Shown here: piece after piece, positions 6,384 to 50,469 of the stretch
Layout of the letters: each line of letters starts with the position of its first letter
Position numbering within the stretch: the stretch's first letter is position 1
Assembly (NCBI GenBank): GCA_022824395.1
Contig: JAJDZX010000025.1
Coordinates: forward strand, 1-64,000
DNA from: Alphaproteobacteria bacterium
GTDB lineage: Bacteria; Pseudomonadota; Alphaproteobacteria; TMED109
Direction: 5' to 3'
Length of the DNA stretch: 64,000 bases
Program-made: the position numbers and the translations under genes
Notes under the pieces: model-generated
What the model was told of the DNA's origin: nothing
Databases searched by the model: none
Seen by the model: only the letters and a program-made list of their open reading frames with translations

Positions 6384-7376
6384 TTGATCTCGGTGTCGGG
6401 TAGCGCGCGCGCCCGCGTGGGCGTCGTCGGAGTCGGCCGCTGGGGCCGGAACCTCGCCCGGAACTTTCACGCAATCGGCTGCCTTGCGGGTTTGTGCGAC
6501 ACGGATCCTGAACACCTCCGGGATGCGGCGGATGCCTATCCGGCGGTGCGTGCCTACCCCGAGTCCGAGGCGCTGATCCGGTCAGGGGACGTCGAGGCCA
6601 TCGCGATCGCGACGCCCGCCGGCACGCATCATGAACTCGCCGCATCAGCCTTGGCTGCGGGTCTGCACGTGTTCGTCGAGAAACCGATGACCACCGATCT
6701 TGGCGCGGCGAGGACGTTGGTGGTCCGGGCCCGGGCCGCGGGGCTGCAGCTCGTGACCGGACACCTGCTGCACTATCACCCGGCCTTTCAGACGTTGCGG
6801 GCGATGGTGCATGACGGACGGCTCGGAGCGCTGCGCGGTATCGAGACGAGCAGGCTCATGTCGGGGCCCGAAACCCCACGGGAACACGTGATCTGGGAGT
6901 TCGCGCCGCATGACATCGCAATGATCCTCGCCTGCACCGGTGCTCTGCCATCGTCAGTCCGTTGCGCCGGGCCGGATTCGGCGTCGGATGGCCCTTCGGC
7001 GGCACATGCCCGTGTGGAGCTCGCCTTTTCCGCCGGTCTCCGGACCCGGACAACGGTGTCGTGGCGAGGCCGTGCCAAGGTGCAGCGGTTCGAGGTGGAG
7101 GGGGATGCCGCGACGGCCGTGTTCGACGATACAGCGGCCCCGGGTTCGAAATTGACGCTGGCCGCCGCCGGTCAGCCGCCGAGGCCGGTGCCGGTGCCGG
7201 AGCGGGAACCGCTGGCCGGCGAATGCGCGGCCTTCGTTGAGGCGGTGGAAACCGGCGTGGCCCCGCCGAGCGGGGCAGACGAGGGATTGCGGGTCATGAC
7301 GGTGCTCGACGCCTGTTTTCGCTCGCTGGAGGAACGGGGGACGGTACCGCTGCGGATCCCGGGGAACGCCGGATGA
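6384..7376 (+). CDS. Gfo/Idh/MocA-family NAD(P)-dependent oxidoreductase
   Basis: A 330-residue dehydrogenase with an N-terminal Rossmann fold (VGVVGVGRWGRNLARNF, 12-28) and the family signature VFVEKPMTT, with Glu99-Lys100-Pro101 where Lys is the usual catalytic/proton-relay residue. The second half is the alpha/beta substrate domain, including HPAFQTLRAMV. It overlaps the DegT-type aminotransferase by 4 bases (ATGA). This pairing is typical of nucleotide-sugar pathways such as 3-amino or 2,3-diamino uronate synthesis (WlbA/WbpB plus WbpE types), so I infer oxidation of a sugar nucleotide before transamination. TTG 6384 or GTG 6393 could be the start; neither has a clear ribosome site. Confidence 0.8.
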   Translation: MISVSGSARARVGVVGVGRWGRNLARNFHAIGCLAGLCDTDPEHLRDAADAYPAVRAYPESEALIRSGDVEAIAIATPAGTHHELAASALAAGLHVFVEKPMTTDLGAARTLVVRARAAGLQLVTGHLLHYHPAFQTLRAMVHDGRLGALRGIETSRLMSGPETPREHVIWEFAPHDIAMILACTGALPSSVRCAGPDSASDGPSAAHARVELAFSAGLRTRTTVSWRGRAKVQRFEVEGDAATAVFDDTAAPGSKLTLAAAGQPPRPVPVPEREPLAGECAAFVEAVETGVAPPSGADEGLRVMTVLDACFRSLEERGTVPLRIPGNAG

Positions 7377-8566
7377 CCGATTCGCCAGCCCGACCACCTG
7401 TGACCCTCCTTGACCCGGTAGCCCAGTACCGGAGGCTGCAGCCCGCGGTCGATGCCCGCCTGGCCGCGGTGCTCAAGCATGGCCGCTTCATCAACGGGCC
7501 CGAGGTTGCCGAACTGGAAGCCGAACTGGCGACCCTGACAGGATCCAGGCACGTCGTGACGGTCGCCAACGGGACCGATGCGTTGAACATCGCGCTGCGC
7601 ACGGAGCGGATCGGTCCGGGCGACGCGGTGTTCGTCCCGGCGTTCAGTTTCGTGGCGAGTGCCGGCGCCGTCGCGCTCAACGGCGCCACGCCCGTCTTCG
7701 TCGACATCGACTCGCGGACCTTCGTGATGGACCCCGCGGTGTTGGCCGATACCATCCGTCATGTGCGCGCGGCCGGCGATCTCGTGCCGCGCGCCGTCAT
7801 GCCGGTCGACCTGTTCGGGCTGCCGGCCGACTACGACCGCCTGGTGCCGCTGTGCCGGGAAGAGGATCTGTTTCTGCTCGTGGATGCCGCCCAGAGCCTG
7901 GGAGCCAGCCAGCATGGCCGGAGCGTGGGTTCGTTGGGGGATGCGTCCATCACGAGCTTCTTCCCCAGCAAGCCGCTCGGCGCGTGGGGCGACGGCGGGG
8001 CCATGTTCACCGACGGCCCGGAGCGCATGGGGCGGTGGCGGAGCGTCAGTGCGCACGGAACCGCGGAGGATCCGTACGATGCCCAACGGACCGGCACCAA
8101 CTCCAGGCTCGATACACTGCAAGCAGCAGTGCTGCTGGCCAAGCTGCCCGGCTTCGGGGACGAAATCGCCCGCCGCAATGCCATAGCCGAGGCCTACACC
8201 GAGGCCCTGTGCGGCCTGGCCGAGACTCCCGAAGTGCCCGCCGGCAGCGTCAGCGTCTGGGCGCAGTATTCGTTGCTCCTGGATGACCGGGACGCCGTCC
8301 GGTCCGCGCTTTCCGAGCGCGGAATCCCGACGCGCGTGTACTACCCGCGGACCTTGCCCGCCCAACGTGCCTTCCGGCATGCCGCTGCGCTGGGGCTTCC
8401 TTGTCCGGTGGCCGAGGAGACCGCGACCCGGATCGTCAGTCTGCCCATGCACTCCGAACTCGACGACCGCGCGGTGGACCGGGTCATCGCGGCCCTGCTG
8501 GAGGTCCTTCGGGGCCGGCAGCCCGCCCCGCCTAGCGCTGACTTGGATCCGTCTGCTGGCGCATGA
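7373..8566 (+). CDS. DegT/DnrJ/EryC1/StrS-family PLP aminotransferase
   Basis: A 397-residue sugar-type aminotransferase. The PLP-binding lysine is Lys200 in SFFPSKPLGAWGDGG, and VTVANGTDALNIALR near the N-terminus is the usual cofactor phosphate region. FVPAFSFVASAGAV and VDAAQSLGA (cofactor Asp) also match the family. It most likely transaminates a 3-keto or 4-keto nucleotide sugar made by the overlapping Gfo/Idh/MocA enzyme. No acyltransferase or glycosyltransferase follows, so the end product is unknown. Its last 35 bases run antisense to the end of the convergent secreted-protein gene. The similarity is clear enough to be sure of the fold but not the sugar. Confidence 0.87.
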   Translation: MTDSPARPPVTLLDPVAQYRRLQPAVDARLAAVLKHGRFINGPEVAELEAELATLTGSRHVVTVANGTDALNIALRTERIGPGDAVFVPAFSFVASAGAVALNGATPVFVDIDSRTFVMDPAVLADTIRHVRAAGDLVPRAVMPVDLFGLPADYDRLVPLCREEDLFLLVDAAQSLGASQHGRSVGSLGDASITSFFPSKPLGAWGDGGAMFTDGPERMGRWRSVSAHGTAEDPYDAQRTGTNSRLDTLQAAVLLAKLPGFGDEIARRNAIAEAYTEALCGLAETPEVPAGSVSVWAQYSLLLDDRDAVRSALSERGIPTRVYYPRTLPAQRAFRHAAALGLPCPVAEETATRIVSLPMHSELDDRAVDRVIAALLEVLRGRQPAPPSADLDPSAGA

Positions 8567-16002: not shown

Positions 16003-17027
16003 GCCAACCCCTGCGTGCAGGCGATCAGCCGTTCGAGCGCGCCGCCGGCCGCGCCGGTATCGATCGACCGGGCCGCATGCGCGGCGCCTTCCCTGAGATC
16101 GCCGGCCTGCCCGGCGACGACCAGCGCGGCGCCCGCGTTCAGCAGCACGATGTCGCGGTACGGGCCCGGTGCGCCGTCCAGCAGCCGCCGGATGCTGGCC
16201 GCGTTCGCCGCGGCATCGCCGCCGATCAGGTCTTTGGGCGAGGCTCTCGCGAGGCCGGCGTCCTCGGGGGACGCCGTGAACGTGCGCACCCGGCCGTCCC
16301 TGAGTTCGGCGACGCTGGATTCGCCGGTGAGCGTGAGCTCGTCCATGCCGTCGCCGCCGTGCACGATCCAGGCGTGCTCGGAGCCCAGTTCCCGGAGCAC
16401 CTCGGCCAGGGGCGTCAGCCAGCGCGCGGCGAACACGCCGATGACCTGACGGCGGACGGCGGCCGGATTGGCGAGCGGCCCCAGCAGGTTGAAGATCGTG
16501 CGCAATCCGAGATCGGCCCGCACGGGCCCGACGTGCCGCATGGCCGGGTGATAGATCGTGGCCATCAGGAAGCCGACGCCGGCGGTCCGCATGGCCTCCT
16601 CGACCGCCGCGACGGGCGCGGTGACGTTGACCCCGAGGGCGCCCAGCACGTCGGAGGATCCGGACTTCGATGAGACCGCGCGGTTACCGTGCTTGGCGAC
16701 CGGCACCCCGCACCCCGCGACCACGAGGGCCGCCGCGGTCGAGACGTTGACGGTGCCCAGTCCGTCGCCGCCGGTGCCGCAGGTGTCGATGGCGCCGGGC
16801 GGGGCGCTGACGGGCGTGGCCTTCGCCCGCATGGCCCGCGCGGCTCCGGCGATCTCGTCCACCCGCTCCGTGCGGACCCGCAACGCCATCAGGAACGCGG
16901 CCGTCTGGGCCGGGCTGGCCGCCCCCTCCATCAGGAGCGAGAACGCGTGCTCGGCCTGTTCGCGGTCGAGCACGCCGCCGTCGGCAACCCGCGCCAGCAC
17001 GTCGCGAAACTCCGCCCCGGCGTTCAC
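15999..17027 (-). CDS. trpD: anthranilate phosphoribosyltransferase
   Basis: TrpD joins anthranilate and PRPP. The 342-residue protein has the PRPP-binding [19 protein letters not shown] and [21 protein letters not shown] blocks, and the [13 protein letters not shown] segment. Start and stop overlap the neighbouring trpG and trpC genes by 4 bases, showing tight coupling. Full length with no anomalies. Confidence 0.96.
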
Positions 17028-17608
17028 GCGGACGCCTCCGCCCGACTCGTCTGGAGAAAGTTCCGCAACAGCGGGTGGCCCTGTTCGGACGCGATGCTCT
17101 CCGGGTGGAACTGGACCCCGAAGAGCGCGTGCTCGACGTGCCGGATGCCCATGATGACACCGTCGGCGGTCTCGGCGGTGATCCGCAGGCAGTCGGGCAG
17201 GGAGGTCCGTTCGAGCACCAGCGAATGGTAGCGGGCGGCCGTGAACGGGGAGGGCAGGCCGCGGAAGATGTCCTGTCCGTCATGCTCGATCGGGCTGGTC
17301 TTGCCGTGCATCACCGTCCGGGCGCGGACGACCCGGCCGCCGAACGCCTGGCCGATGGACTGGTGCCCCAGGCAGACCCCGAGCACCGGTGTCCGGCCGG
17401 CGGCGGCGCGCACCAGCTCGAGGCAGATCCCCGCCTCGTTGGGGGTACATGGCCCCGGCGACAGGACGATTCCATCCGGTTCGCGGGCGAGCACGTCCGC
17501 GGCCGAGAGGGTGTCGTTCCGGTGGACCTCGACGGACGCCCCCAATTCCTCCAGATAGTGCCAGAGGTTCCAGGTGAAGCTGTCATAGTTGTCGATCAGG
17601 ACGTACAT
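17024..17608 (-). CDS. trpG: anthranilate synthase glutamine amidotransferase component
   Basis: A 194-residue class I glutamine amidotransferase that supplies ammonia to Trp[13 protein letters not shown] is the diagnostic N-terminus. The catalytic Cys79 lies in [12 protein letters not shown], and the His/Glu pair in [10 protein letters not shown] near residue 170. The start ATG 17608 lies 28 bases after the trpE stop. It may also serve aminodeoxychorismate synthase (PabA role), as the two are often shared, but the operon position supports TrpG. Confidence 0.95.
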
Positions 17609-40790: not shown

Positions 40791-40804
40791 TGGCGGATGG
40801 GGAG
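40791..40804. repeat. attL core (14-bp direct repeat)
   Basis: TGGCGGATGGGGAG here is identical to 50380-50393, the last 14 bases of the tRNA-Ser gene including CCA (read on the minus strand). The match ends abruptly at both sides. It marks the left junction of the element, nine bases after the aldo/keto reductase stop. Confidence 0.85.
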
Positions 40805-40921
40805 TCCGCGAACGCCTGTTTTCAGCCGATGGCGGCTTGTCGCAACTGACCCGGAAATAGCCTTGTAAACCCGACATTTACCGCGATATCCGGTTTCTTG
40901 CGCCGCCGCCCAATATCAACT

Positions 40922-40954
40922 AGTCTCATGTCAGTTGTAACAAACGGGAACACA
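40922..40954 (+). repeat. left arm repeat of the element
   Basis: The pattern AGTCTCATG-N7-TNACAAACGG-N2-ACACA occurs here and at 50290-50322 in the same orientation; 24 of 33 positions agree. The copies lie 118 and 57 bases inside the two ends, as integrase arm-type or excision-factor sites do. This copy also carries CAGTTGT and ACAACTG as an inverted pair (40932-40958) just before the integrase gene. Confidence 0.55.
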
Positions 40955-40987
40955 ACTGGCAATGGCGGACACAGTGGGAATCGAACG

Positions 40988-42163
40988 ATGACCGCGCGAA
41001 TGTCGGCGCGTTTCGTCGAGACTGTTTCGAAGCCTGGGCGCTACGGTGACGGGCGCGGCGGGCATGGCTTGATCCTGAACGTGCACCGCACCATCCATGG
41101 CGATCTGTCGCGCTCATGGATACAGAGGATCCGAATTGCCGGGCGCGTGACGCACTTGGGTCTCGGCAGCTTTCCGCTTGTGACCCTGGCCGACGCGCGA
41201 CGGGCCGCGCTCGAGAACCGGCGGAAGGTCGCAACGGGAGTCGACCCGCGCACCGGGGGCATACCGACGTTTGCAGCTGGCGTTGACGCGGTGCTTGCGA
41301 TTCAGTCCGGCGCATGGCGTGACAGTGGGAAATCGGAAAGCCAATGGCGGGCCAGCTTGCGAGACTACGCGGGGCCGCTCATGCGGAAGCGGGTAGACGC
41401 GATCGAGTCGGGTGACGTCCTCGCGGTGCTCGCGCCGATCTGGAACACGAAGCGCGAGACCGCCCGCCGCGTTCGCCAGCGCATCGGCGCCGTCATGAAG
41501 TGGGCGATTGCCGAGGGTCACCGGAAAGACAATCCGGTTGACGCAATCGGCGCCGCACTGCCGAAAAATGGCGCTCGCAAGCGGCACCATCGGGCGTTGC
41601 CGTACGGGCGCGTCGCGGACGCGCTAGCGGCCGTGCGGGCGGGCGGGGCCTATGTCCATACCAAACTCGCGTTTGAGTTTCTTGTGCTCACGGCGGCGCG
41701 TTCGGGCGAAGTGAGGGGCGCGACGTGGGACGAAATCGACATGGGCGAACGCCTTTGGACGGTGCCGGCAGACCGCATGAAGGCGGGCCGCGAGCATCGG
41801 GTACCGCTATCGGCGCGGGCGCTGGCCGTGCTACGCGAGGCGATGGAATATCGCGACGGTTCGGGCCTTGTGTTCCCTTCCGCTCGCGGACGGCTGCAGT
41901 CGGACTCCACCATGAGCAAGCTGCTACGCGAGACCGGAATCGAGGCGGTGCCGCATGGCTTCCGTAGCAGCTTCCGCGATTGGGCGGGCGAACGGACGCA
42001 CACACCGCACGCGGTCATGGAAGCCGCGCTAGCGCATACGATCCGCGACAAGGCCGAGGCCGCGTACGCGCGAAGTGACCTATTGGACAAGCGCCGCGAT
42101 CTCATGGACGCATGGGCGCGGTTTGTCACCATGGACACGCGGAAAGTTGTTGCTATTCGCTGA
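40988..42163 (+). CDS. int: P4-type tyrosine integrase
   Basis: A 391-residue site-specific recombinase. The N-terminal about 85 residues match the P4-integrase DUF4102 arm-binding domain (LGLGSFPLVTLADARRAA). The catalytic domain shows Arg238 in TAARSGEVRGATW, His323 and Arg326 in PHGFRSSFRDWA, His350 and the nucleophile Tyr360 in AHTIRDKAEAAYARSDLL. It should integrate and excise the element at the tRNA-Ser 3' end. ATG 40988 is chosen because the family N-terminus begins here; ATG 40928 is also in frame. It is unusual in sitting at the end far from the tRNA gene, reading inward. Confidence 0.93.
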   Translation: MTARMSARFVETVSKPGRYGDGRGGHGLILNVHRTIHGDLSRSWIQRIRIAGRVTHLGLGSFPLVTLADARRAALENRRKVATGVDPRTGGIPTFAAGVDAVLAIQSGAWRDSGKSESQWRASLRDYAGPLMRKRVDAIESGDVLAVLAPIWNTKRETARRVRQRIGAVMKWAIAEGHRKDNPVDAIGAALPKNGARKRHHRALPYGRVADALAAVRAGGAYVHTKLAFEFLVLTAARSGEVRGATWDEIDMGERLWTVPADRMKAGREHRVPLSARALAVLREAMEYRDGSGLVFPSARGRLQSDSTMSKLLRETGIEAVPHGFRSSFRDWAGERTHTPHAVMEAALAHTIRDKAEAAYARSDLLDKRRDLMDAWARFVTMDTRKVVAIR

Positions 42164-42246
42164 ACGCGCCATTAGGGTGTCGTAACTGGGAGATTGCTGT
42201 TCGCTTGGGCGCGGATTCGAACGAATCCTATGGGCGGGAATTCCCC

Positions 42247-42474
42247 ATGCGCGACCAAGTACCAGAGACCGAACAGACCCAAGACGCTTATCGGCTGCTC
42301 ACTGTCCGCGAAGTAGAGAAGCGGCTGAGCATGAGCCATGCCACGCTGTACCGGCTGATGAACGCCGGCCGGTTCCCAAAGCCGCTGAACCTTGGGCCGC
42401 AAGTCCGGCGCTGGCGAAGTGATGAAGTCGAGGCTTGGCTAGAAGCACGTAGCGAAGAGCGCGAAGCCGCCTAG
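42247..42474 (+). CDS. AlpA-family transcriptional regulator
   Basis: A 75-residue MerR-like winged-helix protein of the AlpA/excisionase type: LLTVREVEKRLSMSHATLYRLMNAGRFPKPLNLGPQVRRW followed by SDEVEAWLEAR. AlpA proteins activate integrase or replication genes of P4-like islands and PICIs, or act as excision factors. GGGCGGGAA precedes ATG 42247. It lies between the integrase and the ATPase, the normal place in satellites. Confidence 0.88.
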   Translation: MRDQVPETEQTQDAYRLLTVREVEKRLSMSHATLYRLMNAGRFPKPLNLGPQVRRWRSDEVEAWLEARSEEREAA

Positions 42475-42507
42475 TCGGTTGCCCGCCCCGCACAAGGCGG
42501 GGCGAGC

Positions 42508-43590
42508 ATGTTCCGGTCGTTACAGGCGGCCGGGACGGGGCAACGGCTAGGTTGGAGCCGCCGCGTGGAAGAGTCTAAGCAATCGCAATCTGAGCGGGAA
42601 CCGGACGCGACCCCGGCGCCGGACCCGTGGATAATCCCGCTGCAAACGCTGATGGACCGGAAGACGTCGATAACTTGGCTTGTGAAGGATCTACTCCAAG
42701 CCGACGGTTCCGCGCTGCTACTCGGGGCCGCGAAGTCCGGCAAGTCGACTCTCGCGCGGCAGTTGGCCGCGACGGTCACCCAGACCGGCAACCGTGAATT
42801 TGTCGGGCGGCGGGTCATTAGCGATCGCAGCGGCTTTTCGGGCCGCGCGCTGATCGTGAACCTGGAAGACTCCGACGACACCGCCAAGCACCATTTGTTG
42901 AAGTTGGGAGCCGACCCGTTGCGCCTCTACATGACCACGTGGCCGCAACCGCCAGTGAAGGAACGGCTAGCCGCGCTCGATGAGGCAATCGGCTACTGCG
43001 CCCCTGATCTTGTCGTTATCGACACGCTGCAAGCCTGGCTCCAAGTCGAGGACATCAACGCGTACGCCGAAGTCCAAGGGGCGCTTGCGTCGCTGTGTGG
43101 CCTCGCACGTCAACACAACACGTGCCTGCTACTCCTGCACCATGCGAGGAAAGCGGGCGGAACCGGGGGCGCCGAAGCGCTAGGGTCAACCGCGATCGCT
43201 GGCGCTACCGATTGCATTCTGAGCCTGAAAGTCCGCGAGGACGCGGACCAAACCCGCACCATTGAAGCCAACGGGCGAAACAGCGTGAAGCTGAAACGCA
43301 CCGCGCTGAAACTCGAGGATGGCCGGATCGTTTCGGCTGGCACGATCGGACGCCTGAACGCCGAGGAATTGAAAGATCGGATTCTTGAGGAAGTAGAGAA
43401 CGCGGACGGCGGCGAAGTGACGGAAAGCGAACTGCGGGAACGCATCGGCGGGCGCAAGCAAACGCTGTTGAAATTGCTAGATGAGCTGGTCAGTTTCCGC
43501 GACCTGGAGCGTCGCGGGACTGGCAAGCGCAACGACGCGCGCCGATATTCGGTTCCCGGTTCCGTCCCTATGTCTAGGGACGGGAACTGA
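42508..43590 (+). CDS. RepA/RecA-fold AAA-type ATPase (replication helicase candidate)
   Basis: A 360-residue ATPase. Walker A is GAAKSGKST (73-81); Walker B is DLVVIDT (167-173); LLLLHHARKAGG and GSTAIAGATD are the sensor regions of the hexameric RepA-like helicases of IncQ plasmids and of many islands. The C-terminal 70 residues look like a winged helix (VTESELRERIGGRKQTLLKLLDEL), possibly for DNA binding. ATG 42508 follows a purine-rich GGGGCGAGC; GTG 42565 would also work. It probably drives autonomous replication of the excised element. Its last bases fold into the first of two related hairpins. Confidence 0.8.
   Translation: MFRSLQAAGTGQRLGWSRRVEESKQSQSEREPDATPAPDPWIIPLQTLMDRKTSITWLVKDLLQADGSALLLGAAKSGKSTLARQLAATVTQTGNREFVGRRVISDRSGFSGRALIVNLEDSDDTAKHHLLKLGADPLRLYMTTWPQPPVKERLAALDEAIGYCAPDLVVIDTLQAWLQVEDINAYAEVQGALASLCGLARQHNTCLLLLHHARKAGGTGGAEALGSTAIAGATDCILSLKVREDADQTRTIEANGRNSVKLKRTALKLEDGRIVSAGTIGRLNAEELKDRILEEVENADGGEVTESELRERIGGRKQTLLKLLDELVSFRDLERRGTGKRNDARRYSVPGSVPMSRDGN
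43559..43587. repeat. hairpin 1 at the end of the ATPase gene
   Basis: GTTCC-GTCCCTA, loop TGTC, TAGGGAC-GG(G)AAC forms a stem of twelve pairs with one bulged G. It overlaps the last codons of the ATPase gene. A sister hairpin with the same GGTTCC...CTAGGG...GGGAAC plan follows 76 bases later. Confidence 0.65.
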
Positions 43591-43634
43591 AAGCACTCCT
43601 AGCCAATGGGCGCAACGGTTCTTGTCGATTATTT

Positions 43635-43667
43635 CGGTTCCCACTCCAAGCCCTAGGGTGGGAACCG
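43635..43667. repeat. hairpin 2, related to hairpin 1
   Basis: CGGTTCCCAC (43635-43644) pairs perfectly with GTGGGAACCG (43658-43667). The loop contains the palindrome CCCTAGGG. The twin structures in a 250-base non-coding tract after a replication ATPase suggest an origin, a regulator target or a transcript processing site. Confidence 0.65.
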
Positions 43668-43841
43668 GAACCGAATGCCGGGCGCACCGGGGACCGTACC
43701 CCGGGGCACACCTGCGGCGGGCATGGTCGGGCACGCCTGCCCCCCTGCCTGGCGTCCCTGCCCCGGCAGGTGCCCCCGTGATGGCACCGCCCGAAAGGTG
43801 GGGCGGGGGGAAGGCCGACGCGCCAAGTATTGTGTGTAACG

Positions 43842-45269
43842 ATGACCGATTTACTTCCCTTCCAACGTCGATTCCTTAGAGCGGCGGCGCGTTCGGACAT
43901 ACGGACGGCGGCGCTTTCGTGCCCGCGAGGAAACGGCAAGAGCTGGATTGCGGCGCAACTGGCGCGGCGGGTGCTTGATCCGGGCGATTCGATGTTTCAG
44001 GCCGGATCGGAGTCGGTATTGGTCGCCGCGAGCCTGGAGCAAGCCCGGATCGTCTTCCGCTTCCTGCGAGCCGATATCGAGGAGACGGGAAATTATCGGT
44101 TTCTCGATTCGCATACGCGGATCGCTGCCGTGCATGAGGCCAGCAACACGCGGCTTCGGGTGATCGGTAGCAATGGCCGAACCGCAATGGGCCTCGTGAA
44201 CACGCCGCTTGTGATTGCCGATGAACCGGGCGCCTGGCTGCCGGTCGGCGGCGGCCTTGTGCATGACGCGATCCAAACGGCAATGGCGAAGCCGGGAAGC
44301 CCGTTGAAGGCCGTCTACATTGGAACGCTCGCGCCGGCGACGGCGGGATGGTGGCATGAGCTGATCGCCGACGGTTCGCGTGGGAGCGTTCACGTGCAGT
44401 GTCTACAGGGGCGCCGCGATCGGTGGGACAGTTGGGCCGAAGTCATGCGGGTGAATCCGCTCGCCAAGGTGTCGGCAGACTTCCGGGACCGTCTACGCGA
44501 GGAACGTGCCGAAGCGCGACGCGATGGTCGACTCAAGGCGCGGTTCCTGTCCTATCGGCTGAACGTGCCGACGGCGGACGAGTCGACCGTGCTGCTGACG
44601 GTGGAGGATTGGAGGGGTGTGCTTGCCCGCGAAGTTGCCCCGCGCCACGGCCGCCCGATTGTCGGAATCGATCTTGGCGGGGGCCGGGCATGGTCCGCCG
44701 CCGTCGCCATGTGGCAAAGCGGACGGATCGAGGCGCTGGCCGTTGCACCGGGCCTGCCGTCACTGGAAGAGCAGGAAAAGCGGGATCGGGTGCCAGCGGG
44801 AACCTACCGACGCCTTGCCGCGTCCGGTGCGCTTCGCGTCGCGGAAGGCTTGCGGGTGCCGCCAGTCGCGGCGCTATGGGGCTCGATTGCGGACGCCTGG
44901 GGCAACCCGGCGCGGATCGTCTGCGACCGGTTCCGACTGCCGGAGCTGCGAGACGTGGCGAACGGTGCGCAAGTACTCCCGCGCCGCGCCCGTTGGAGCG
45001 AGGCGAGCGAGGATATCCGGGCGTTGCGCCGGATCGCGGCGGACGGGCCTGTATCGGTCGCCGAGTCGGCGCGGGGCCTGCTTACCGCGAGCCTGTCCGG
45101 GGCAATGGTGAAAAACGATGACCAAGGTTCCACCAGACTTGCCAAGCGGGGCACCGACAACACGGCGCGTGACGACGTGGCGGCGGCGTTGGTACTAGTC
45201 GCCGGGCTGTTCGAGCGAGCGAGGAAAGAACCGCGTCCTCGTATGCGGTATCACGGGCTGATCGGGTGA
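43842..45269 (+). CDS. terL: phage terminase large subunit
   Basis: A 475-residue packaging motor. The ATPase domain has Walker A PRGNGKS (28-34) and Walker B LVIADEPG with Asp127-Glu128. The RNase H-type nuclease domain begins at GIDLGGGRAWSAAVAMW (Asp277) and ends with TARDDVAAALVLVAG, where the terminal metal-binding Asp lies. This is full length for the HK97 group. No recognisable small terminase is upstream; the preceding 250 bases are hairpin-rich. It overlaps the HNH gene by four bases (GTGA). Confidence 0.85.
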   Translation: MTDLLPFQRRFLRAAARSDIRTAALSCPRGNGKSWIAAQLARRVLDPGDSMFQAGSESVLVAASLEQARIVFRFLRADIEETGNYRFLDSHTRIAAVHEASNTRLRVIGSNGRTAMGLVNTPLVIADEPGAWLPVGGGLVHDAIQTAMAKPGSPLKAVYIGTLAPATAGWWHELIADGSRGSVHVQCLQGRRDRWDSWAEVMRVNPLAKVSADFRDRLREERAEARRDGRLKARFLSYRLNVPTADESTVLLTVEDWRGVLAREVAPRHGRPIVGIDLGGGRAWSAAVAMWQSGRIEALAVAPGLPSLEEQEKRDRVPAGTYRRLAASGALRVAEGLRVPPVAALWGSIADAWGNPARIVCDRFRLPELRDVANGAQVLPRRARWSEASEDIRALRRIAADGPVSVAESARGLLTASLSGAMVKNDDQGSTRLAKRGTDNTARDDVAAALVLVAGLFERARKEPRPRMRYHGLIG

Positions 45270-45544
45270 GCATTCGACACCGGCAGCTGCACGCCGGTCG
45301 ATGGGCGCGGACGCGGCGGCGCGTCTTCAAGCGCGACGGTTACCGCTGCCGACGCTGCGGTCGAGCGGGGCGCCTCGAGGCCGACCACGTGGATCCGGAT
45401 TGGGGCACCGACCCGTACGACCTGGCGAACCTGCAAACGCTTTGCCGGACGTGCCACATCAGCAAGACCGCTGAGGAAAACCGCCGCGAGCCGAGTCCGG
45501 AGCAGCTCGATTGGCGGCGCATGTTGGAGGAAATGATCGGGTAG
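45266..45544 (+). CDS. HNH nuclease next to terminase
   Basis: A 92-residue HNH endonuclease. Zinc-knuckle cysteines Cys28/Cys31 and Cys60/Cys63 surround LEADHVDPDWGTDPYDLANLQTLC, in which His41 and Asn55 are core HNH residues. In HK97-type phages and in capsid-forming satellites such nucleases sit beside the terminase and are needed for DNA maturation at cos. GTG 45266 overlaps the terL stop. A role in packaging is inferred from position. Confidence 0.87.
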   Translation: MSIRHRQLHAGRWARTRRRVFKRDGYRCRRCGRAGRLEADHVDPDWGTDPYDLANLQTLCRTCHISKTAEENRREPSPEQLDWRRMLEEMIG

Positions 45545-45634
45545 ACGTTTCCGCCGATAGAACGCATACTTGCGGCTGCATGGGCGCAAATGAGCGAACC
45601 GCCATCGGGCGGGAATCAGTGGAAGCGCCCAGCA

Positions 45635-46900
45635 ATGACAAAAGCCCAGAAGCGACTCGCCGACCTGCTAGAGCGGCAATCCAAATCGCGGCAACGCATG
45701 GCCGAGCTGGCCGGTGCCGACGAACTGAACGACGAAACCCGCGCCGAACTGGACACGATCGAGGCGGGCGTGCCTGACCTGGAGCGCCAGATTCGCGCCG
45801 CCCGCGTCGCCGCCGCCGACGAGGAAGCCGAGCAACGGCAAGCCGCCCGCGATACCGAACCGGACGCCGAAGACCGCGAGCGGGCCGAACTGCGCGGCAA
45901 GGTCCGGCTTTCCCGTTACATCGGCGCGGCAGTCGAGACCCGCGCGGCGGACGGTCCCGAAGCCGAGTACAACGCGGCGATCGGCCTTCCGGCCAACCGC
46001 TTCCCGCTAGAGCTGCTGGCCGCGCCGGCAACCGAGACGCGGGCAACGACCAACGCGGACGCCGAAGCAACGCAGCGCCCCTGGGTGGATCGCCTCTTTA
46101 GCGAGACCGCCGCCATGAAGGTCGGAATCACGTTCCAAAGCGTCGGGCCGGGGGTGTCCGCGCATCCTGTCGTGACGGCGGGTGCCAGCGCCGCCCAACG
46201 GGGCCGTTCGGAAGCTGCTTCCGATGCAGCGTGGACGGTGGCCGTCAAGGACATCAAGCCGACGCGAAACACCGTCCGGGCCTCCTTCTCCGAGGAAGAC
46301 GCAAACCGATTGCCGGGCCTGGAAGACGCCCTGCGCCGCGATTTGAGCATGGCGCTTACCGAAGGCGTGGATCGGGCGATCTTCCTGGGTGATGCGGGCG
46401 CGAACGAAGACACCGCCGACATTACGGGGCTGATCGCACAGACGGGCGTTACCGAAAAGACGCTGACACAGGCCGCCAAGGTCAAGGCGCCCGACACGCT
46501 GGCCGCGTTCGCGTCACTTGTGGACGGCAAGCACGCTTCCGGACTCGGCGACCTGATGGTATGCGCGAGCGTGGGTAGCAACACGCTTTGGCTGTCCACG
46601 ATCGCAGCGGCGACCGCCGACACGAAAACGGTTGCCAGCTTCCTGCGCGAGAACGGGCTGGATTGGGGTGTGCGCGGCGACATTGACACGGCGACCGCCG
46701 CCGGTGACTTCGGCGCATTCGTCGGGCTTGGGCGGGGCATCCAGGGGGCCGGAGTCGCGGCGATCTGGAACGCGGGAATGCTGATCCGTGACCCGTACAC
46801 GGCCGCCGCCAAAGGCGAGGTCGCGCTGACGCTTTCGCACTTCTGGGGCTTCGCCTTGCCCCGACCGTCGAACTTCGCACGACTCAAGTTTGTTGCCTGA
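45635..46900 (+). CDS. HK97-fold major capsid protein
   Basis: A 421-residue capsid subunit. Residues 1-85 are a charged coiled coil (MTKAQKRLADLLERQSKSR onward), the scaffold-like delta domain that the prohead protease would remove. The shell domain follows, with VGPGVSAHPVVTAG, NTVRASFSEEDANRLPGLEDALRRDL, a FLGDAGANEDTADITGL region and the C-terminal AAIWNAGMLIRDPYTAAAKGEV...FWGFALPR. ATG 45590 would add 15 residues. It lies upstream of its protease, the reverse of the HK97 order. Confidence 0.83.
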   Translation: MTKAQKRLADLLERQSKSRQRMAELAGADELNDETRAELDTIEAGVPDLERQIRAARVAAADEEAEQRQAARDTEPDAEDRERAELRGKVRLSRYIGAAVETRAADGPEAEYNAAIGLPANRFPLELLAAPATETRATTNADAEATQRPWVDRLFSETAAMKVGITFQSVGPGVSAHPVVTAGASAAQRGRSEAASDAAWTVAVKDIKPTRNTVRASFSEEDANRLPGLEDALRRDLSMALTEGVDRAIFLGDAGANEDTADITGLIAQTGVTEKTLTQAAKVKAPDTLAAFASLVDGKHASGLGDLMVCASVGSNTLWLSTIAAATADTKTVASFLRENGLDWGVRGDIDTATAAGDFGAFVGLGRGIQGAGVAAIWNAGMLIRDPYTAAAKGEVALTLSHFWGFALPRPSNFARLKFVA

Positions 46901-46911
46901 CGGGGCGGCCG

Positions 46912-47391
46912 ATGGAGGCGTACGAGCGCCGCCTCTTCCGCACTGAACTACGGGCGGAAGGGAGGCGCCTGACGGGAACCGCGATGGTGTATGGCGACAC
47001 GTCGCCATCGCACCGCGAGCGATTCGAACCGGGCGCGTTGCAGCTGGCGGAAGCCGTCACGCTGAACCTGCTACATGAGCCGTTGCAGGCGATAGCCTGG
47101 GCACCGGGCGGCGGGCTTGACTTCGAGCATGACCAGTCCGAATTGCGAATGGTCGTCGCGGACGCGCCGCCGACGCCGGCGGGCAACCTGGCGCTTGAAT
47201 TGGTCCGCGAGGGGCAGGCCAAGGGCCTTTCCATCGAGTTTCGAGCCGAACGCGACCGCCGCGAGGATGGAGTCCGGATTGTGGAGTCGGCGGTGCTTTC
47301 CGGTCTCGCGATCGTGCGGGCGCCTTCGTACAAGCAATCGCAGATTGAAGCGCGCCGGGCGTCGGGCAAGAGGCTTCCCGTATGGCTCTAG
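46912..47391 (+). CDS. HK97-type prohead protease
   Basis: A 159-residue serine protease that trims the capsid delta domain. Typical blocks: GTAMVYGDTSPSHRERFEPGAL, LNLLHEPLQAIAW with His55, and AKGLSIEFRA with the nucleophile Ser107, then VLSGLAIVRAPSYKQSQIEAR at the end. It lies 11 bases after the capsid gene and overlaps the next gene by ten bases. That it follows the capsid gene is unusual for HK97-like modules. Confidence 0.87.
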   Translation: MEAYERRLFRTELRAEGRRLTGTAMVYGDTSPSHRERFEPGALQLAEAVTLNLLHEPLQAIAWAPGGGLDFEHDQSELRMVVADAPPTPAGNLALELVREGQAKGLSIEFRAERDRREDGVRIVESAVLSGLAIVRAPSYKQSQIEARRASGKRLPVWL

Positions 47392-47789
47392 TTCCCCCAC
47401 GCTTTGAAACGCAATTCGTGACGCTGGCCGCCGATGGAACGCCGGTGGACCTGGCCGCGAATGCAACCCTGCTGCCGCCGGATTTCCCCGACGATCCGCT
47501 TGTCATCTCCGACAGTGACGGGGAGGGCTACAGGTTCTCCGACGTATTCGTGCAGGTCATCGAAGGAAACGCACGCTGGCGGGAATCGGCTGCTGCGCCG
47601 GCGCCGTCCGACGCGGGGCACGTAGCGTCAACTGGTGACGGGGCCGTGCTGCGACTTGAGCGCGGACGGAGCCTGTGGTTCTGGGCGCCGGGCGGTGCGG
47701 CGGCGGAGCTGGCCGTTTCAGTGGCCAGCGCGGCCCCGGTGCGGAGCGACGCCCAATACGACTACGACGTCGGCGTGGCGGACGAATAG
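47382..47789 (+). CDS. unknown protein of the head operon
   Basis: A 135-residue acidic, beta-rich protein (ETQFVTLAADGTPVDL, LRLERGRSLWFWAPGG) that I do not recognise. It overlaps the protease end by 10 bases and stops immediately before the connector gene. Its position among head genes suggests a capsid decoration, cement or head-completion role. There is no signal peptide or membrane segment. Confidence 0.6.
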   Translation: MALVPPRFETQFVTLAADGTPVDLAANATLLPPDFPDDPLVISDSDGEGYRFSDVFVQVIEGNARWRESAAAPAPSDAGHVASTGDGAVLRLERGRSLWFWAPGGAAAELAVSVASAAPVRSDAQYDYDVGVADE

Positions 47790-48140
47790 ATGCCCGTCAC
47801 CCGCTTCTACCGGGCGCCGCCGCAGCAATCACCTTTGCCGCCGGACCCGCCGCCCGTCACCGCCGCCCTGACGTTGGACGAGCTCAAGCTCGCGCTCCGC
47901 ATCGACGGCGACTCGTCCGACTCCCAACTGACGCGCAATCTTGAGGCTGCAAGGGCATTGACGGAGCGGCAGGCGCCGGGGGCTCCGACTGCGATCAAGG
48001 CCGAAGCGATGATCCGCGCCATTGGCTGGCTGCACGATGGAATCGATCTTCCTGATGCAAGCGTCACGTCCGTGTGGACGCGCAGCGGGGCCAGGGCGTT
48101 GTTGTCTGCGTGGACGGCGCGGCGGGCGGGCCTCGCCTGA
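47790..48140 (+). CDS. gp6-like head-tail connector protein
   Basis: A 116-residue protein. After a proline-rich start, ALTLDELKLALRIDGDSSDSQLTRNLEAARALTE followed by KAEAMIRAIGWLHD is the all-helical pattern of HK97 gp6-type connectors, which form the ring below the portal and later meet the tail. ATG 47790 follows the previous stop directly, and its stop overlaps the portal start by one base (TGATG). In a tail-less satellite this is the part expected to dock a helper tail. Confidence 0.72.
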   Translation: MPVTRFYRAPPQQSPLPPDPPPVTAALTLDELKLALRIDGDSSDSQLTRNLEAARALTERQAPGAPTAIKAEAMIRAIGWLHDGIDLPDASVTSVWTRSGARALLSAWTARRAGLA

Positions 48141-49213
48141 TGCGCTGGCCTTGGCAGGCTCGCACGGAACGGCGATCGAGCGCCGGAGACTTCGCAGACC
48201 TGATCTTGCGGGCAATCGAGGCGGACGAAGCCGCCGCAACGATGGACGTTGCCGCGACCGGCGCCGTGGAAGCCGCCGCGGGCGCACTGTCGCGGGCCTT
48301 CGCGGGCGCGACAGTGGAAGGGCCGGAATGGGCCGTGCGAGCCGTCACGCGCGATTGCCTGGCACTGACGGGGCGCGATCTCATTCGCAAGGGACAATCG
48401 CTGCACGCGCTCCGAATGGGCATGGACGGGCGTTTGCTGCTTGTGCCGTGTTCGGATTGGCATTGGCAGGACGGAAATCACGATCCGGCGACATGGCGGG
48501 TCCGGGCGTCCGCGTACGGGCCGCGCTCAACCGAAACCTGGCTGTTGCCGCTCGATAGCGTGGTATTCGTGACCTGGGGCCGACGCTCCGAACGTCCGTA
48601 CACCGGCACCGGGCCGCTCACGTTCGCCAGTCAGACCGCGAAGCTAGGTTTCCATGCCGAGCGGGGCCTGGCCGACGAAGCGGCGGGGCCGATTGCCCAA
48701 CTGCTGGCAATCCCGAGCGACGGCGGCGACGGCACCGAAGCCAACGACCCGCTAGCGAAGTTGAAGAGCGACATTGCGAAGGCGCGGGGCAAGGCCGCAT
48801 TCGTGGAAACGACCTCCGGCGGCTGGGGCGAGGGCCGCGACGCTGCACCGCGCCGCGACTGGCAAGCCGCCCGCCTGGGGCCAAATCCGCCCGCCGGGCT
48901 GGTAGAGGCGCGGCAAGCCGCGTTTGCCGCCACACTGGCCGCGTGCGGGGCGTCCGTGGCGCTGTTCGATGACGCGGACGGCACCGCGAAGCGCGAAGCG
49001 TTGCGCCAATTCCATATGGGCACCGTCCGCCCGCTTGCCCGCGTCCTGGAAGCGGAATTGTCGCGGAAGTTGGGCGCCACGATCCGGCTTCGATTCGACG
49101 GCTACGCGCTCGATATGGTCTCACGCGCCCAAGTGGTGCAGAAGCTGGCACAAGCGGGCGTCGCGCTCGAGGTCGCCATGTCCGCTGTTGGCATGACGGA
49201 CGATGCACCGTGA
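48140..49213 (+). CDS. phage portal protein
   Basis: A 357-residue portal of the HK97-like group. Recognisable features: VAATGAVEAAAGALSRAFA near the start, CLALTGRDLIRKGQSLHALRM, the YGPRSTETWLLPLDSVVFVTW beta region, PYTGTGPLTFASQTAKL, and the C-terminal FHMGTVRPLARVLEAELSRKLG. It is shorter than typical phage portals (about 400 or more). It forms the dodecameric DNA gate of the head. It lies at the end of the head operon rather than next to terL, another departure from HK97 order. Confidence 0.78.
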   Translation: MRWPWQARTERRSSAGDFADLILRAIEADEAAATMDVAATGAVEAAAGALSRAFAGATVEGPEWAVRAVTRDCLALTGRDLIRKGQSLHALRMGMDGRLLLVPCSDWHWQDGNHDPATWRVRASAYGPRSTETWLLPLDSVVFVTWGRRSERPYTGTGPLTFASQTAKLGFHAERGLADEAAGPIAQLLAIPSDGGDGTEANDPLAKLKSDIAKARGKAAFVETTSGGWGEGRDAAPRRDWQAARLGPNPPAGLVEARQAAFAATLAACGASVALFDDADGTAKREALRQFHMGTVRPLARVLEAELSRKLGATIRLRFDGYALDMVSRAQVVQKLAQAGVALEVAMSAVGMTDDAP

Positions 49214-49419
49214 CCGAGACCGCGCCCCGGTCGGTGCGTGCCGGAAAATACCAGCCGGCCCAGCACTGGACCGACCGCCCTGACCGGTCACGCCCGCGCC
49301 GTCGATGCAGCGGTTGCAACAAGATGTTTCAGCCGACCGAGCGAAGACGGCTGTTGTGCCGCTTCTGCTTCAAGCGCGGGGGGCCGCCCAGCTCATGGCA
49401 CAACGAGGGGAGTGACTGA
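49210..49419 (+). CDS. small zinc-ribbon-like protein
   Basis: A 69-residue basic protein with two CxxC pairs (CSGC at 33-36 and CRFC at 50-53), a probable zinc ribbon. GTG 49210 overlaps the portal stop, and its own stop overlaps the next ATG, so it is translated as part of the head operon. The function is unknown; a role in packaging or gene control is possible. Confidence 0.55.
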   Translation: MTETAPRSVRAGKYQPAQHWTDRPDRSRPRRRCSGCNKMFQPTERRRLLCRFCFKRGGPPSSWHNEGSD

Positions 49420-49673
49420 TGCCCAAGCCGAAGACCGTTGCCGTTGAGCTCTCGCCTGAATCGGTGCAGATGCTGGCCGAGATGGTGCCGGCCGCGAAGC
49501 TGATGGCCGCGTCGCAGGGGGTGCCGGTGATGTCGCCCGCTGACCTGGTCGGGATCGCCATTGCCTACATGCATGAGCGCGTCATTGGCCGTGCCGCCGC
49601 AATGGCGGAAGAAAACGAAGCCGCAGCAGAAGGCCAAGGCGAATCGCTTTGGCCTACGCCGTCGGTTCACTGA
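49419..49673 (+). CDS. small hypothetical protein, last gene of head operon
   Basis: An 84-residue, mostly helical protein (LSPESVQMLAEMVPAAKLMAA; SPADLVGIAIAYMHERVIGRAAAMAEENEAA). No family recognised. Its start overlaps the previous stop (TGATG). The operon's hairpin lies 41 bases after its stop. Confidence 0.55.
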   Translation: MPKPKTVAVELSPESVQMLAEMVPAAKLMAASQGVPVMSPADLVGIAIAYMHERVIGRAAAMAEENEAAAEGQGESLWPTPSVH

Positions 49674-49936
49674 AACGGTCGGGCGGCTTTCCTCGCCGTT
49701 TGTCGCCTGATCAGAGACCGGGGCGCCCGGCAGGGCGCCCCGGTCTCACCTAGTCGAGACCGCCGCGGCGGGTGATTCGCATCGCCTGTTCGCGCCCATG
49801 CTTCCGCGGCGGTCTCATTCCCCTGACTGCGAGGAAACCGCAGGTCGGGGTCACGGTTTGCGAGCGCGGCAAGTATGGCGACGATCAACGCCTTGAGCGC
49901 CGTGGCATCCGCGTCAAGGTCTCTATCGGTAGTCAC
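49667..49936 (-). CDS. doubtful small minus-strand ORF
   Basis: An 89-codon frame from GTG 49936. The first 35 residues look like a real helix (ATALKALIVAILAALANRD), but the rest is read through the hairpin at 49714-49747 and is Arg/Pro rich. The end overlaps the plus-strand gene by seven bases. It may be a real short gene after the 49964 gene, a truncated one, or chance. Confidence 0.3.
   Translation of the reverse strand: MTTDRDLDADATALKALIVAILAALANRDPDLRFPRSQGNETAAEAWARTGDANHPPRRSRLGETGAPCRAPRSLIRRQTARKAARPFQ
49714..49747. terminator. perfect 15-bp-stem hairpin after the head operon
   Basis: GAGACCGGGGCGCCC (49714-49728), loop GGCA, and its exact complement (49733-49747). It is the strongest hairpin in the window and lies just after the last plus-strand gene of the element. 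It lacks a T-run but would stop or protect the operon transcript. Confidence 0.75.
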
Positions 49937-49963
49937 GCCTGATCGTTGCCCCGGCCTAAGCGG

Positions 49964-50215
49964 TTACGGCGATTCGGCAATCGTGGCACCGGGAATGAGT
50001 ACTTGCTGATCGGGTAGACGCTCGGCAAGGGCCGTCATGCGTTCTTCGAGTCGCGCCATGCGCACGTCGAGCGCGTGGACGTTGCCGCGCAATTCCCGCA
50101 AATCGCCCGCGATCGGCGCCAAGCTCGCATTCATCATCAGGTAGAACATGCCCGCGACGGCCGCCATTGGGACGGCGAACTCGGCGGCCAGCTTCGCAGC
50201 ATCAGTCCATTGCAT
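49964..50215 (-). CDS. small membrane protein with coiled coil
   Basis: An 83-residue protein. Residues about 10-27 form one membrane helix (AEFAVPMAAVAGMFYLMM), followed by a heptad-like helix (LRELRGNVHALDVRMARLEERMTALAERL, shown here as positions 39-66) and a short tail. ATG 50215 follows GGGAGA at a good distance. It is on the minus strand at the right end of the element, opposite to all head genes, as accessory or exclusion genes often are. XhlA-like phage proteins have a similar layout, but the family is not certain. Confidence 0.6.
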   Translation of the reverse strand: MQWTDAAKLAAEFAVPMAAVAGMFYLMMNASLAPIAGDLRELRGNVHALDVRMARLEERMTALAERLPDQQVLIPGATIAESP

Positions 50216-50289
50216 CGCGACTCTCCCTACCAAATCCTAGCAGGCCGTTCCCTGATAGTCTTTGCCCCTTGTCCCAAGCAATCGCCACC

Positions 50290-50322
50290 AGTCTCATGCA
50301 CAAAGTCACAAACGGCGACACA
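50290..50322 (+). repeat. right arm repeat of the element
   Basis: This is the partner of 40922-40954 in the same orientation, with AGTCTCATG, ACAAACGG and ACACA conserved at the same spacing. It lies 57 bases inside the attR core. Confidence 0.55.
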
Positions 50323-50379
50323 CCGGCTTGCAGTGTTTCGGCGAAACGCCAATGGATTTCGGCGCTTATTCGGGAACCG

Positions 50380-50393
50380 TGGCGGATGGGGAG
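50380..50393. repeat. attR core inside tRNA-Ser
   Basis: TGGCGGATGGGGAG, the second copy of the 14-bp core, forms the 3' end of the intact tRNA-Ser gene (discriminator, CCA and the 3' acceptor strand). Confidence 0.85.
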
Positions 50394-50469
50394 GGATTCG
50401 AACCCCCGGATTCCTTGCGGAATCGCCGGTTTTCAAGACCGGTGCTTTCGACCACTCAGCCACCCATCC
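50380..50469 (-). tRNA. tRNA-Ser(UGA)
   Basis: Read on the minus strand, the gene starts GGATGGGTGGCTGAGTGGTC. The acceptor stem GGATGGG pairs with CCCATCC. The anticodon loop is CTTGAAA with anticodon UGA. The long variable arm (GCGATTCCGCAAGGAATC, 18 bases) shows a class II serine tRNA, and GGTTCGAATCC is the T arm. The discriminator is G and CCA is encoded. The 3' end serves as attachment site for the element, and the tRNA stays intact after insertion. Confidence 0.97.

Follow-up and report, generated by a model that had tools for sequence, protein, structure and literature searches.

Capsid-forming phage-inducible chromosomal islands (cf-PICIs) carry genes for a capsid, a protease, a portal, connectors, the large and small terminase subunits and an HNH protein, and need only the tails of a helper phage (PMC10690885; this and the other papers cited here are used in excerpt). 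Three radiations of cf-PICI capsids have been reported (PMC11389934). These islands average 14 kb and are 'primarily found in' seven groups, the alphaproteobacteria not being named in the excerpt (PMC10803314); in the excerpted papers the hosts of the cf-PICIs described are enterobacteria, Gram-positive bacteria and a few other groups. Here we describe an element, E1, at positions 40791–50393 of a 64,000-nucleotide stretch of alphaproteobacterial DNA (lineage TMED109; assembly GCA_022824395.1, contig JAJDZX010000025.1, positions 1 to 64,000; 'the window' below). We put a probability of roughly 0.8 on E1 being an integrative satellite, intact and tail-less, that builds and fills a head of its own and takes the tails of a helper phage; that it works like cf-PICIs is our best reading. 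The same genome contains a second, divergent element, E2.

E1 is delimited by exact copies of a 14-bp core, TGGCGGATGGGGAG, at 40791–40804 (attL) and 50380–50393 (attR). The integration target is an intact tRNA-Ser(tga) gene on the minus strand (50380–50469); the right copy forms its 3′-end, which the left copy reproduces exactly. The unit is 9,589 bp long. In the genus, all six of the other genomes have an uninterrupted site in which the left flank meets tRNA-Ser directly; the overlap between the matches of the two flanks is 14 bp in five of them and 13 bp in one. With all six sites empty, no tail-bearing relative was found at the same tRNA-Ser gene. Within E1 every reading frame is open; by the gene list, coding sequence makes up 93.8% of the interior, and the biggest gap is 239 bp. 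An earlier note on this DNA had described a tRNA-integrated element within exact 14-bp repeats with intact, nearly gapless genes, and both statements were upheld by these observations.

The 14 open reading frames (ORFs) of E1 were scanned against Pfam and PHROGs, the four smallest against PHROGs only. The plus strand begins with a tyrosine integrase (40898–42163; Phage_int_M, Phage_integrase and Arm-DNA-bind_3), an AlpA-type regulator or excisionase (42247–42474; Phage_AlpA, 2.2e-12; the ORF is open from 42112 and its start was picked by eye) and a RepA-like ATPase (42508–43590; AAA_25, 2.1e-26). There follow the terminase large subunit TerL (43830–45269; phrog_9, 1.9e-35, a match in PHROGs only), an HNH endonuclease (45266–45544; PF01844, phrog_144), the major capsid protein (45590–46900, start probably at 45635; PF05065, 9.3e-5), an S78 prohead protease (46912–47391; PF04586, 1.6e-11), a 135-aa protein without a Pfam or PHROGs match, which from its position is perhaps a head decoration or neck protein (47382–47789), a gp6-like head-tail connector (47790–48140; PF05135, 1.6e-4, and phrog_40) and the portal (48074–49213, start probably at 48140; PF04860, 4.4e-9). 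Behind the portal lie genes for two small proteins, one of 69 aa (49210–49419), with homologues in the same place in the related loci L006, L007 and L010, and one of 84 aa (49419–49673), 45% identical to the E2 protein at the same place. Two minus-strand genes for 89-aa proteins occupy the right end (49667–49936 and 49964–50233); neither product matched a PHROG.

The Pfam scores of the capsid (22.4 bits, cut-off 24.2) and of the portal (36.4 bits, cut-off 39.1) fall just below threshold. Structure models of both proteins were built from 22-sequence alignments and compared with the PDB. The capsid model (mean pLDDT 78) matched HK97-fold capsids with a best E-value of 3.5e-12 and a TM-score of 0.39 for the top match; the portal model (mean pLDDT 72) matched HK97-type portals with a best E-value of 1.9e-8 and a TM-score of 0.46, both of these modest TM-scores being normalised by query length. 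In the capsid model the N-terminal part is long and helical, and we take it to resemble the delta domain of HK97. No tail or lysis family was matched by any of the 14 ORFs, and AlpA is the sole regulator seen among them. This agrees with the gene set proposed earlier, from integrase through AlpA, the RepA-like protein, TerL, HNH, capsid, protease and connector to portal, and with the proposed absence of tail, lysis and repressor genes. Nor was a separate small terminase subunit (TerS) matched among these ORFs; the HNH protein gave a lower-ranked match to phrog_4581, a PHROG named terminase small subunit, and the DNA ahead of terL comprises only 239 bp of non-coding, repeat-rich sequence.

When 144 genomes were searched for the capsid, only the two copies of the own genome were returned, the second being 35% identical over the match (36% in the alignment). 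This copy belongs to E2 (L003:7421-17390; G000:C41), a unit of 9,958 bp with a 12-bp repeat that interrupts a gene whose flanking frames read as a glycine-betaine-type binding protein of an ABC transporter. The E2 site, too, is uninterrupted in 6/6 other genomes of the genus. E2 encodes AlpA, RepA, TerL, HNH, capsid, protease, portal, a small post-portal protein and an integrase. Identity to the E1 proteins is 63% for the protease, 53% for the portal, 51% for the integrase and 35–36% for TerL, capsid and RepA. The head genes common to both elements keep the same order, while the insertion targets differ and the E2 integrase is placed at the opposite end and on the opposite strand relative to E1. 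Two copies so divergent, each with the one head-gene set, do not fit chance deletion.

Searches with portal and TerL alignments drew in five loci on genome contigs and 23 distinct IMG/VR contigs of 7.6–17.3 kb (median 10.2 kb); a capsid alignment search of viral contigs recovered only L010, already known. Genome searches later added G305, G714, G761, G658 and G591, and a plasmid search added the marine Pseudorhodobacter turbinis S12M18 (L053; NZ_CP039965.1, from RepA to integrase at about 1198033–1208355), which brings the loci with an E1-type TerL to 35. This count leaves out L008 (at a contig edge, portal only); also dropped were L029, which is L020 reversed, and L030, whose portal is missing at a contig end. 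Fourteen of the 35 loci are bounded by exact repeats, and their units have a narrow size range of 9,589–10,944 bp (mean 10,131, SD 396). Their targets are tRNA-Ser(tga), tRNA-Ser(gct), tRNA-Glu, tRNA-Pro, tRNA-Lys and tRNA-Met, tRNA-Arg and tRNA-Asn twice each, tRNA-Cys three times, and one coding gene. Five of the 23 IMG/VR contigs end in exact repeats of 55, 99 or 127 bp and were read as circles; L021, L023 and L024 are among the circular contigs. Most members show TerL-HNH-capsid-protease-connector-portal, with circular permutation in some contigs; the order in L005 is capsid-protease-connector-portal-TerL-HNH, and in L020 TerL-HNH lies on the opposite strand. Replication genes vary, with an AAA_25 RepA in several members and primase/helicase types in L051 and L005. 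The host class of the family was inferred from named relatives (L006–L009) and from kinship labels; L005, on a 27-kb contig binned as Candidatus Binatia, may be misbinned.

The scan for tail genes across the family (Pfam or PHROGs) covered the genes of E1, E2 and selected relatives, a part of the ORFs of the 35 loci. Among the ORFs scanned there was no match to tail-tube, tape-measure, baseplate, fibre or lysis families. The longest gene-strand ORFs of the 14 bounded units encode TerL, RepA or primase, integrase and capsid and do not exceed 635 aa, so that a tape measure would find little room; two of the large ORFs, in L051 and L005, proved on scanning to encode primase/helicase proteins.

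A first TerL tree, with 29 family and 15 outgroup sequences, placed the family on one side of a branch with 100/100 support. After addition of four family members and eight moderately similar TerLs of the same class, 33 family TerLs again stood on one side (100/100), against 23 others, phages among them; the partial TerLs of L022 and L024 were left out of both trees. Outside the family group fall L103 and L111, two of the eight added sequences, which come from loci bearing a tape measure, and L106, another of the eight, whose portal, scaffold and head protein are of phage type. The cf-PICI reference and three alphaproteobacterial plasmids with head genes (L054–L056) are also outside; two of these plasmids, L055 and L056, have tape-measure matches and are very small phage-like plasmids. 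That the tape-measure carriers lie outside sharpens the contrast with the family, although the members were picked by similarity and the grouping leaves room for an unsampled tailed sister. At an E-value of 1e-3, none of 50,697 phage records was matched by the capsid, TerL or portal of E1; the L010 capsid had no match in the phage collection either. The TerL of E2 matched 519 records, all below 60% identity and at 22–27% among the matches listed. The closest homologues are other elements of the same kind and not the genes of any one tailed phage.

The remaining TerLs added to the tree came from L104, L105, L107, L108 and L110. L104, L105 and L110 combine an integrase, a TerL outside the family and head genes in other orders, and L105 is bounded by 27–28-bp repeats at tRNA-Asp. 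The three plasmids L054 (CP099479.1, Roseomonas), L055 (NZ_CP088250.1, Methylorubrum) and L056 (NZ_CP157016.1, Paracoccus) are circles of 16–17.5 kb with phage head and packaging genes; a partial scan of L054 showed no annotated tail gene.

The sole cf-PICI reference in the tree was a locus of E. coli EDL933 (NZ_CP008957.1, about 1680329–1694760), which we take to be EcCIEDL933, a name that the record does not give to the locus. Like E1, it has an integrase followed by an AlpA-like regulator at one end, a replication gene, HNH, TerL, capsid, prohead protease, portal and connector, with the capsid before the protease and the protease before the portal, and no annotated tail or lysis genes. The features of cf-PICIs found in E1 are the capsid, protease, portal and connector, TerL together with HNH, the absence of a tail or lysis match, and an att-bounded unit in which the integrase is followed by AlpA; the small terminase subunit was not found. 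E1 differs from EcCIEDL933 in that its late operon is led by TerL-HNH and ends with the portal, and from cf-PICIs in that neither TerS nor a head-closure protein was recognised among its genes and in its size of about 10 kb against the average of 14 kb (PMC10803314). Its family differs from EcCIEDL933 in forming a separate TerL group, mostly in alphaproteobacterial hosts. Because no TerS was found in it and it has another order and size and, as judged against one reference, a separate TerL lineage, we did not file E1 as a cf-PICI. The earlier note had proposed that E1 belongs to the cf-PICI class or to a lineage convergent with it, and that its head operon is rearranged. The satellite class and the rearrangement are supported, and 'convergent' now describes E1 better than 'member', one cf-PICI reference having been compared.

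Other described systems resemble the family in part. The cf-PISP satellite-plasmid TG54 of Vibrio crassostreae has head and packaging genes and no tail, as the family does, and its plasmid form is paralleled by L019 and L021, circular family contigs without a recognised integrase; TG54 differs in its 15.8-kb size, in plasmid maintenance and in a capsid that clusters with those of gammaproteobacterial cf-PICIs (PMC13230959, in excerpt). MulchRoom and MiniFlayer, satellites of Streptomyces phages, share with E1 the capsid and packaging genes and the dependence on a helper, but have Streptomyces hosts, virulent helpers, no primase homologue in the part of the account used and a scaffolding protein in the head module (PMC10690885). 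HK97-type tailed phages (AF069529.1) have a TerL of the same family and the same protease, capsid and portal folds, but their order is TerS-TerL-portal-protease-capsid, then tail genes, and the capsid and portal of E1 are unmatched in the phage records searched. A P4-like element or classical PICI, which redirects the capsids of a helper and has no capsid gene of its own, was rejected, E1 having its own HK97-fold capsid. In a literature search over titles and the beginnings of abstracts we found no report of such satellites in alphaproteobacteria, Rhodobacterales or Rhizobiales; the primary cf-PICI surveys lie outside this search and may hold cases.

The E1 lineage consists of elements of about 10 kb, mostly alphaproteobacterial, with a terminase group of their own and probably an origin separate from that of the E. 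coli cf-PICI. We lean, if only slightly, towards a wider proposal, in which the family would be a separate deep radiation centred on alphaproteobacteria, with integrating and plasmid-like (ParA, no recognised integrase) branches, which makes some of the smallest DNA-filled HK97-type heads, docks them to the tails of unrelated phages and evolved tail-stealing independently of the known cf-PICIs. It may instead descend from true cf-PICIs, as a branch of a published capsid clade that has been rearranged and shortened. E1 shares with EcCIEDL933 the bulk of the gene inventory, the start with integrase and AlpA and the order capsid-protease-portal; the TerL of EcCIEDL933 is matched by family models (2e-17), and its AlpA-like regulator, protease and, weakly, connector are matched by family proteins. 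We regard such descent as unlikely, EcCIEDL933 lying outside the TerL group with 100/100 support, its capsid and portal being unmatched by family models at an E-value of 0.01, and the family being smaller, with no TerS found. Deletion of the tail and lysis genes of a tailed prophage, leaving its head end, would account for the HK97-type head genes, and tape-measure prophages with moderately related TerLs do exist in the same class (L103 and L111). This origin is very improbable and was rejected: the genes of E1 are all intact and fit exactly between the att repeats, with no truncated gene or ragged end, the tail-less set recurs across many targets and hosts within a very narrow size range, and the tape-measure-bearing relatives stand apart in the TerL tree. 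Alphaproteobacteria often carry gene transfer agents, and a chromosomal head operon could also be such an agent or a domesticated cluster kept by the host. That the host has domesticated E1 is hardly tenable, and this reading too was rejected, given the element's own integrase, att sites and replication gene, its patchy presence (it is absent from 6/6 genomes of the genus), the two divergent copies at unlike targets and the circular contigs among its relatives.

The reading that bears most directly on tail borrowing is that no tail is borrowed at all, small proteins providing a minimal neck or short tail, or the element spreading as tail-less heads or by another route. Several observations speak for it or weigh against the satellite proposed here. 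Uncharacterised proteins flank the connector and portal (47382–47789, 49210–49673), and many small proteins of the family have no assigned function, in a scan that was partial over the 35 loci. A match to phrog_5, 'tail completion or Neck1', occurs in L020 and L031 and one to Pfam 'Phage_tail_terminator_9' in L023, so that some members keep tail-joining parts. One subclade, L025–L028, carries an ORF of 859–1,205 aa between connector and portal (L025:4937-7990, L026:3-2582, L027:5266-8391, L028:5408-9025), with a weak 'virion structural protein' PHROG match in two of the four. No connector was recognised when the E2 genes were scanned. Excision, particle formation and transfer of E1 are themselves read from genes. 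Finally, no helper was found in the own genome (133 contigs, 92.9% complete), where three families were searched: PhageMin_Tail and Phage-tail_3 had no match, and Phage_portal matched E1 only, below the cut-off. The sensitivity of this search is limited, since the E2 portal is missed by PF04860, and one published cf-PICI is mobilised by phages not resident in its strain (PMC11389934). A life without borrowed tails remains improbable in our judgement: no lysis match occurred among the ORFs scanned, the large ORFs tested in bounded units encode primases or integrase, and helper tails are used by the published systems that carry this gene set, as far as the excerpt goes (PMC10690885).

As a tail-borrowing satellite, E1 would be excised from tRNA-Ser by its integrase and AlpA, the limits being those given by the empty sites, and the resulting circle would be replicated by RepA acting on the adjacent repeats. 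TerL and HNH may then cut at a packaging site just ahead of terL, and about 9.6 kb would be pumped into an HK97-type prohead assembled from the element's own capsid, protease and portal, presumably one genome per small head. By scaling, about 10 kb in one HK97-type head, at one genome per head, would correspond to about T=3. The connector at the portal would take a tail from a phage that is resident in the same cell or infects it, and the lysis genes of that phage would release the particle. If this is true, an alphaproteobacterial family of about 10 kb with its own terminase lineage would mark head-making combined with tail-borrowing as a repeated and stable strategy and would bring down the size limit for a self-packaged satellite. 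Pseudorhodobacter turbinis provides a cultured carrier in which it can be tested how a tail comes to be accepted by a foreign head. The family also suggests that some 9–12 kb virus contigs judged incomplete are complete satellites.

Two regions of E1 may serve these steps. A cluster of inverted repeats, TTCGGTTCCC, at 43542–43681 may represent RepA-binding iterons or an origin; E2 has a cluster of TTTCTTTACCCG at the equivalent position between RepA and TerL. The two clusters differ in sequence, as would be expected of RepA-specific origins. Adjoining TerL on the plus strand, a conserved non-coding block (43779–43826) aligns with E2 over about 49 columns, and the longer alignment that encloses it reaches a score of 45, while 200 shuffles gave at most 27. 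Its 13-bp core, with up to two mismatches, occurs upstream of terL in 4/26 other loci (L005, L006, L007 and L019; 2.0% expected per locus). With the core in so few loci, the block is a candidate packaging (cos) site in the E1/E2 branch and no further.

Intact elements of this family are rare. In the class sample, the first portal model matched 5/385 genomes: the own genome and G305 with intact elements, G092 and G211 with remnants, and G097 weakly. The TerL model at 1e-30 matched 14/385, with family members in the own genome and G305; seven of the 12 others were inspected and none belonged to the family (G106, G287, G308, G367 and G402 lay outside the inspection). Within the phylum sample the portal model matched 11/398 genomes, all of the same class, six of them at 1e-50 or better (including G355, a remnant) and five near 1e-11; in G614 (L109), inspected among the latter, no family TerL or capsid was found. 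Leaving out the own genome, intact elements number 1/384 in the class and 4/397 in the phylum sample, that is, well under or near 1 in 100. The portal model had no match in the other genomes of the genus, and nothing was found when genome and viral contigs were scanned with single capsid proteins, or in a protease scan.

Near the ends of E1, a 44-nt direct repeat on the plus strand (40911–40954 and 50279–50322, 70% alike) may provide arm-type sites for the integrase. The flanking DNA to the left reads as serS and an aldo/keto reductase gene. The product of 49964–50233 resembles, by eye, a small membrane protein and has a homologue in L047 which adjoins a portal remnant and tRNA-Ser(cga). That remnant (L047, 6936–7849) and the portal fragments in L048, L049, L050 and L102, some of them near tRNA genes, are probably decayed copies of such elements. 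Of the two circular contigs without a recognised integrase, L021 encodes an ATPase of the ParA type and L019 a transposase of the Tn3 type, which suggests plasmid-like forms. L101, at tRNA-Cys, has two integrase genes (6647–7696 and 16311–17402), one within the repeat-bounded unit and the other immediately beyond it; the outer one perhaps belongs to a neighbouring or tandem element at the same tRNA gene.

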